Shown here: positions 28,115-29,200 of the stretch, one piece after another
Layout: each line of letters starts with the position of its first letter
Numbering within the stretch: the first letter of the stretch is position 1
Assembly: GCF_024170465.1 (NCBI RefSeq)
Contig: NZ_JALJYF010000001.1
Span: forward strand, 496,001-560,000
Source of the DNA: Natronospira proteinivora
Lineage (GTDB): Bacteria > Pseudomonadota > Gammaproteobacteria > Natronospirales > Natronospiraceae
Direction of reading: 5' to 3'
Length of the DNA stretch: 64,000 nt
Made by a program: the position numbers and the translations under genes
Notes under the pieces: model-generated
What the model was told of the DNA's origin: nothing
What the model saw: only the letters and a program-made list of their open reading frames with translations
Databases searched by the model: none

Positions 28115-28225
28115 AGAGACTCTTGGAACACCATGCATTATCAAGAACGGCACCACGGTGCGCCGTCGGCGCCGTTTGGCCTTTTCTGAATCCGCTTGTT
28201 CCACCGAATACAGGAACTCTTCCAA

Positions 28226-29200
28226 ATGACCAAAATCGCATTCCAGTCCGCTGCCGATTCCGATTCCCGAGAGAATCTGGAAAAGACGCTACTGAACCCA
28301 GTGGTTCTGTCGGAGCTTGAATCCATTCGCGGAACGGGTATTGCCGAAGAGCTGGCCAACATCTATCCCGGTGACATGGCTCGGGTGGGAGCGGTCAAGC
28401 AGGGCAAGGAAGGCGAGCAGAAGGCCGAATGGGAAAAGCTCCAGCGCGGCGATGTGGTTCTGTTCATGCGCGATGACATGGTCTTTCTTTCCGGGATTGT
28501 CACCTATCTGGTGAAAAATCCGGATTTGGCCCGGGAACTTTGGGGCGACGATGAGCGCGGCCATACCCCCGAGTGCGTTTATTTCGTGGACGAGGTCAAG
28601 GATCAATTTATTCCCTGCAGTACGATCAATCGCATGATGGGGTTGGAGGAGACTTACCCGTGGCCGGGCTTCCAGGTACACCTGGAAGACGTCTCGGCGC
28701 CGGTGGTGTATGGCTATCAGCTGGAAAGCCATGTCTACTTTCCCATCGTCAGCGAGGATGAGTACAAGGAGATTGTTCAGGAGATCGACCGCACCCGTCC
28801 GCTGGACACGAAAGGCTGGAGCCGCCTGAGAAAGGAGGATGGTTTTCTCCGGGATCAGCTTTTCCGGGGCAAGGTGGTGGAAGAGTGTGGTATTTGCGGC
28901 AACAAGTATCCCACCCAGTTTCTAATTGCGGCCCATATCAAGGATCGCTGGCACTGCACCACGGAAGATCGCCTGGATTATCAAAACATTGCCATGCCGA
29001 TTTGCAAGCTGGGTTGTGAGGAACTCTATCGGCGAAACTATGTAACGGTGATTGATGAGCGTGTGGCCGTTACCAAGGCACGGGTGGACAGTAAGGATCT
29101 GAAGTCCATTCTGGTCCGGCTACAGGGGCGGGTCTGCCCCTGGTTCAAGGGCAGCCGCAAATACTTCGATTGGCACACTCGCCTGGGTAAATACTTCTGA
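28226..29200 (+). CDS. Putative EVE-HNH endonuclease (modification-dependent restriction)
   Basis: The C-terminal part carries an HNH nuclease: paired Cys221 and Cys224 (CGICG), AAHI with His237 as the metal/base histidine, Asn254, and Cys260/Cys264 (PICKLGCEELYRRNY). The N-terminal half has a PUA/EVE-like strand pattern (KLQRGDVVLFMRDDMVFLSG at residues 71-90, then TPECVYFVDEV). EVE domains read modified cytosines; EVE-HNH enzymes of the VcaM4I kind cut hydroxymethylcytosine DNA and act as type IV restriction. ATG 28226 has CAGGA ten bases upstream and gives 324 residues; a TTG at 28196 would add ten. No methylase or partner gene is adjacent, as expected of a type IV enzyme. The HNH call is firm, the EVE call is moderate. 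Confidence 0.75.
   Translation: MTKIAFQSAADSDSRENLEKTLLNPVVLSELESIRGTGIAEELANIYPGDMARVGAVKQGKEGEQKAEWEKLQRGDVVLFMRDDMVFLSGIVTYLVKNPDLARELWGDDERGHTPECVYFVDEVKDQFIPCSTINRMMGLEETYPWPGFQVHLEDVSAPVVYGYQLESHVYFPIVSEDEYKEIVQEIDRTRPLDTKGWSRLRKEDGFLRDQLFRGKVVEECGICGNKYPTQFLIAAHIKDRWHCTTEDRLDYQNIAMPICKLGCEELYRRNYVTVIDERVAVTKARVDSKDLKSILVRLQGRVCPWFKGSRKYFDWHTRLGKYF

Follow-up and report, generated by a model that had tools for sequence, protein, structure and literature searches.

The 64,000-nt window, the whole stretch of DNA analyzed here, contains a gene for which the original prediction proposed a lone restriction enzyme joining a modified-base reader to an HNH nuclease. Type IV restriction enzymes are usually seen as patchy, fast-moving defense genes. 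We asked whether this gene encodes such an enzyme or a relative that has been turned to another job, using structure prediction, family profiles, and comparisons with orthologues and mobile relatives.

Domain architecture of the gene product

The open reading frame is intact, from the ATG at 28,226 to a stop codon ending at 29,200 on the forward strand, and encodes 324 amino acids (Table 1). A longer form initiated from a TTG at 28,196 was rejected as unsupported, because every orthologue aligns from the ATG start (MTKIA...). The upstream DNA showed no conservation except a TATAAT-like box common to one relative, and a conserved 5' UTR element was rejected on these grounds. Searches of Pfam, NCBIfam, PADLOC, and the PDB with the single 324-aa sequence returned no significant match. 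The protein also fell below the cut-off for the generic Pfam HNH families PF01844 and PF13391; a generic Pfam HNH identity was therefore dropped and the link to the type IV enzyme VcaM4I was made via a family profile instead. The best matches in a viral structure library were unnamed viral or giant-virus proteins, which are uninformative on function. PHROG 14240, a phage-protein family without an assigned function, matched residues 44–319 and thus covered both domains.

Table 1. Positions of the gene, its domains, and key residues in the window
Feature	Coordinates	Strand	Basis
Whole gene, EVE/YTH-type reader + HNH domain	28226..29200	+	PHROG 14240 match E 2.4e-50; orthologues 77–87%; AF2 mean pLDDT 85
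Reader domain, residues 1–170, PUA superfamily, EVE/YTH type	28226..28735	+	Fold and profile matches
G55 ('TWG' position)	28388..28390	+	Trp in 18/18 relatives
W106, retained	28541..28543	+	Aligned with VcaM4I base-stacking W82
P115 ('TWEY' position; A in one orthologue)	28568..28570	+	Trp in 17/18 relatives
W146, Trp fixed in the Natronospiraceae clade only	28661..28663	+	Loop aligned with VcaM4I Q128/Y130
HNH (beta-beta-alpha-Me) domain, residues 190–324	28793..29197	+	VcaM4I 6yex Z 8.6; TagI Z 7.5; profile E 2.7e-10
Cys221/Cys224, first pair of putative zinc-binding Cys4 (with Cys260/Cys264)	28886..28897	+	Invariant in 22 aligned members
His237, predicted general base (= VcaM4I H224)	28934..28936	+	Profile alignment
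Metal-ligand helix: E265 (= VcaM4I D250), R269 (= VcaM4I D254)	29018..29032	+	Relatives 18/18 D, 18/18 E

We built an AlphaFold2 model with 19 family members (mean pLDDT 85). The two domains were judged separately because the full-length Foldseek match to VcaM4I had a high rmsd (14.9), presumably reflecting a differing domain orientation. The closest fold to residues 1–169 was the N-domain of Thermococcus gammatolerans McrB (TgMcrB; 6p0g, Z 14.7, rmsd 2.7 over 153 residues), followed by archaeal EVE proteins (Z ~10.9) and YTH domains (Z ~9–10). A profile of 24 reader domains likewise had the TgMcrB N-domain (6p0f) as its top PDB match (E 5.5e-4). These matches bear out the PUA/EVE-like character predicted for the N-terminal half, and the fold search of residues 1–170 returned a base-reader fold.

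For the C-terminal part of the model, VcaM4I (130 residues aligned) and TagI were the best structural matches, with the next at Z 4.6. The HNH family profile matched the VcaM4I HNH domain with E-values of 2.7e-10 and 1.5e-9, indicating homology, and the proposed architecture of reader plus HNH is upheld by fold and profile alike. The active site of VcaM4I consists of H224, D250, and D254, with N241 being structural, and cleavage is drastically impaired by either D250A or D254A (PMC7897488). In the profile alignment, these three residues correspond to H237, E265, and R269, respectively. Judged by this alignment, the general-base histidine of the VcaM4I set is present and the pair of acidic helix ligands is absent in all four orthologues; another ligand may substitute at the metal site. 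All six residues named in the original prediction (Cys221, Cys224, His237, Asn254, Cys260, and Cys264) lie at the exact positions given, but its description of the HNH domain as complete does not stand, having left out the acidic ligands, whose positions are occupied by E265 and R269 here. Because these ligands are not found by alignment, the protein should not yet be classed with the standard VcaM4I-type enzymes. Elsewhere, an Acetobacter plasmid protein (L013:4864-6438) has this Cys4-HNH domain behind a long N-terminal region that is unrelated.

By sequence, the reader was also recognized in an Archaeoglobus provirus, on a McrB-type AAA ATPase next to a PD-(D/E)XK (McrC-like) gene, and in haloarchaeal plasmids, where it is joined to Mrr_cat nucleases. 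Given that it occurs on McrB and Mrr_cat effectors too, the domain, as far as sequence tells, serves type IV restriction systems as a modular specificity domain. The reported target of the TgMcrB N-domain is 6mA (PMC7680126) and that of the VcaM4I EVE domain is 5mC/5hmC (PMC7897488). A modified-cytosine target, the default in the original prediction, does not follow, since the nearest reader fold is the one reported on 6mA rather than that of VcaM4I; moreover, invariant reader residues are replaced. The 6mA preference reported for TgMcrB is not transferable either, because the Trp of the family 'WG' motif is Gly here. Leaving the modified-base preference open, as the original prediction did, was justified. 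By alignment, the candidate flipped-base pocket has retained W106, lost W55 and W115, and gained W146. The VcaM4I residues facing the W146 loop in the profile alignment are the wedge Q128 and the stacking Y130.

Several other carriers of the reader were observed. The Archaeoglobus provirus (Pleolipoviridae; L008:5842-8960) encodes the reader-bearing McrB together with the PD-(D/E)XK McrC-like gene. One Halorussus plasmid encodes two reader proteins, one with HNH and one with Mrr_cat, ~15 kb apart and near methylases (L097:2968-3930 and L098:3001-4323). On a viral contig (L059:1-996), the reader is followed by another kind of C-terminus, whose EAK-type motif hints at a PD-(D/E)XK nuclease.

Residue replacement and inheritance in the Natronospiraceae

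We aligned the four Natronospiraceae proteins with 18 diverse full-length relatives. Fifteen columns that are at least 80% conserved among the relatives hold other residues in each of the four Natronospiraceae proteins. In the reader, W55 (18/18 relatives) is replaced by G, W115 (17/18) by P or A, and Y117 by C; in the HNH domain, D265 is replaced by E, E269 by R, and G271 by N, each of the three being present in 18/18 relatives. Two acids are gained and fixed in 4/4 orthologues (Q205 to D and K240 to D). W106, His237, the four cysteines, N254, and D251 are kept. Nearly all derived residues are fixed among orthologues with up to 23% protein divergence, and the replacements are therefore not drift in one genome. 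The joint change of K240/E269 to D240/R269 was considered as a harmless salt-bridge exchange; this was weakened by the retention of E269 where residue 240 is Pro (L014, L016, and L060), VcaM4I having Asp there.

The Natronospiraceae are a family of soda-lake bacteria. The gene was present in 4/4 Natronospiraceae genomes searched, representing two genera, with orthologues at 86% identity in a Natronospira MAG, 77% in a Natronospiraceae MAG, and 87% in another Natronospira genome. No full-length copy was detected in 91 other relatives covered by the same search nor in a sample of 398 Pseudomonadota genomes. The gene has the corresponding neighbors on both sides in two orthologous contigs (L002 and L003). 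Protein identity (86/77%) exceeded that of most neighbors (62–78/54–70%), with two neighbors being comparable or higher. With dN of 0.09–0.16 and dS of 1.3–2.0, dN/dS was about 0.04–0.1, which indicates purifying selection, the ratios being rough because dS is near saturation. In the tree, the Natronospiraceae clade was monophyletic (100/100), with a stem of 1.61 changes per site and tips of 0.05–0.08; it grouped with provirus proteins, with no settled attachment point among the provirus lineages. This pattern is that of a single old acquisition followed by a burst of change and later constraint, and the 'core' status refers to a small clade, since only four genomes from two genera carry the gene. 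The proposal of a recently acquired single-gene defense is contradicted by the presence in every family genome searched, the synteny where checked, and the slow divergence, with conservation equal to or above that of most flanking genes; recent horizontal acquisition was accordingly rejected.

As originally predicted, no methylase partner lies beside the gene. Elsewhere in the same genome are a D12-type adenine methylase and a match to N6_Mtase. Two of the relatives had no match above cut-off to any of the four methylase families searched; host DNA methylation therefore cannot explain a change common to all four, and was rejected as the cause of the altered pocket.

Mobile relatives and their MazG-like neighbors

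The mobile relatives came from two overlapping scans of IMG/VR proviruses, which yielded 33 and 35 loci, and from actinobacterial and Bacillus-group plasmids. Directly upstream of reader-HNH genes in these elements there is usually a MazG-like gene (significant PF12643 match) that overlaps them or lies within ~33 bp. Clustering placed an upstream MazG in 25 of the 33 provirus loci of the first scan, and tblastn added L054 and L056; when near-copies were removed by eye, this amounted to about 16 of 22 distinct members. Pair loci comprise L028-L053 (mostly ~5.6–7.0 kb), L066-L069, L009, L011, L054, L056, and L099. The MazG motif ExxE...ExxD was intact in the one MazG examined. In Rhodococcus, similarity to MazG also precedes a reader fused to another C-terminus. 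There was no MazG match beside the gene in the window or in the Natronospiraceae loci (L002-L007), nor any PF12643 match anywhere in the genome that carries it.

The pairing looks like an undescribed two-gene module. PADLOC has no model for a MazG plus reader-HNH pair, DefensePredictor lists MazG only as a predicted defense domain, and no description of a MazG plus EVE-HNH pair was found in the literature searched. MazG is a nucleotide pyrophosphohydrolase, from which we hypothesize that it would remove modified dNTPs and so leave host DNA unmarked. The pairing suggests that a modification-dependent nuclease may avoid self-damage through policing of the nucleotide pool, within a defined two-gene system.

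On a Rhodococcus qingshengii plasmid (L100:2387-4077), the gene for a reader with a C-terminus lacking a Pfam match is overlapped by an upstream MazG-similar gene, with an AbiGi antitoxin-family gene close by. A Peribacillus plasmid (L099:2730-6546) carries MazG and reader-HNH genes near two DNA cytosine methyltransferase genes. In an Arthrobacter plasmid (L016:2641-5067), an EVE-like-HNH gene adjoins a queuosine precursor transporter gene and tgt; a link to deazaguanine DNA is possible, or the arrangement may be mere chance.

Interpretation and comparison with known systems

The gene product joins an EVE/YTH reader to an HNH domain, belongs to a restriction-enzyme family, and has been kept vertically, with family-invariant residues of the reader and metal site replaced. 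This description is well supported; loss of standard phage restriction is likely. As an overall explanation, we give about an even chance to a vertically kept, rewired protein that is probably no longer a standard phage-restriction enzyme. Its ancestor would have been a modification-dependent nuclease with reader and HNH domains, borne on mobile elements (PHROG 14240) and acquired by the ancestor of the Natronospiraceae, none of whose genomes has an adjoining MazG partner. The gene would then have been fixed and passed on vertically as a core gene. The changes would fall on the stem leading to the clade: in the reader, replacement of W55 by G, of W115 by P/A, and of Y117 by C, together with the new W146; in the HNH metal helix, D265E, E269R, and G271N, along with new acidic residues at positions 205 and 240. 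The new state would have been strongly conserved afterwards. Standard Mg-dependent, modification-triggered phage restriction would thereby have been lost, and the protein would have a housekeeping function, either binding nucleic acid or acting as a reprogrammed nuclease.

The retention of His237, the four cysteines, N254, D251, and W106 speaks against such repurposing, since a fully abandoned nuclease need not keep them. Metal binding by E265 is still conceivable, with D240 or D205, both newly fixed, as a possible substitute ligand, and W146 may reshape the pocket to accept a different base, such that a working reader-nuclease could persist. An active single-gene type IV restriction enzyme, with a changed pocket for another modified base and a metal site rewired around E265 with D240 or D205, is accordingly a serious if tentative contender. 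Its architecture and fold resemble those of VcaM4I and TgMcrB-N, the predicted general base and Cys4 set are kept, and the new D205, D240, and W146 are fixed in 4/4 orthologues. The HNH domain also remains basic (about +6 to +10), and the same reader serves McrB and Mrr_cat effectors elsewhere. However, the charge is reversed at a position where alanine substitution drastically impairs VcaM4I, and the slow, vertical, syntenic evolution is unlike that of most defense genes. The reader (−13 to −16) carries more negative charge than its counterparts in relatives, though halophily could explain this acidity.

YTH and EVE domains are often directed at modified RNA, and the structural matches include YTH RNA readers (Z ~9–10). 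A nuclease or binder for modified RNA rather than DNA, with an HNH domain altered to suit, would also fit the core-gene behavior, which is suited to a housekeeping RNA function. We nevertheless consider this improbable: a DNA reader (TgMcrB-N) far outscores every other fold match, the relatives of the HNH domain are endonucleases acting on DNA, and no RNA-related neighbor gene was seen. A decaying remnant devoid of function, suggested by the loss of several family-invariant residues, is already contradicted by an intact frame in four genomes, the low dN/dS, and the fixation of the derived residues themselves across 23% protein divergence, and we give it almost no credence.

Returning to the rewired, vertically kept protein, its wider implication can be put more boldly, and we regard this extended version as speculative. 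A whole bacterial family would have domesticated a restriction enzyme that phages carry and that targets modified bases, making it a housekeeping factor, with the pocket changed and the metal site rewritten; the mobile relatives would constitute an undescribed two-gene system of MazG and reader-nuclease that, for example, keeps modified nucleotides out of host DNA and thereby confines cutting to phage DNA. If true, a slow-evolving core gene with exchanged catalytic acids and reader tryptophans would show how a base reader is turned to another job, and the exact replaced residues make this repurposing testable.

Among known systems, VcaM4I (EVE-HNH type IV enzyme, 6yex) has the same order of N-terminal PUA-superfamily reader and C-terminal HNH and a similar length, with a homologous HNH domain, H224 equivalent to H237, and the base-stacking W82 aligned with W106. 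It differs in that the reader studied here is nearer to TgMcrB-N, the HNH here has a Cys4 set, and D250/D254 are E265/R269. VcaM4I targets 5mC/5hmC. The TgMcrB N-domain (6p0f/6p0g) is the closest fold of residues 1–169, with WG and GD motifs common to the family; there, however, its fusion partner is an AAA+ GTPase that acts together with McrC, and the family 'WG' Trp is Gly in our protein. The provirus proteins of PHROG 14240 (e.g., L033 and L028) are full-length homologues with ~28–39% identity across both domains. Unlike the present gene, they are borne on mobile elements, usually with a MazG-like gene upstream (typical, not universal), and retain W55, W115, D265, E269, and G271, all of which are replaced here. 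A precedent for the proposed repurposing is the EVE-McrB protein PcdA, which was co-opted for cell division (PMC10602043). PcdA of Staphylococcus has an AAA+ effector domain, in contrast to the HNH domain here, and a cellular role is established for PcdA only; like the Natronospiraceae protein, it is an EVE protein of a restriction family whose catalytic motifs have degraded and which has been kept in one lineage.
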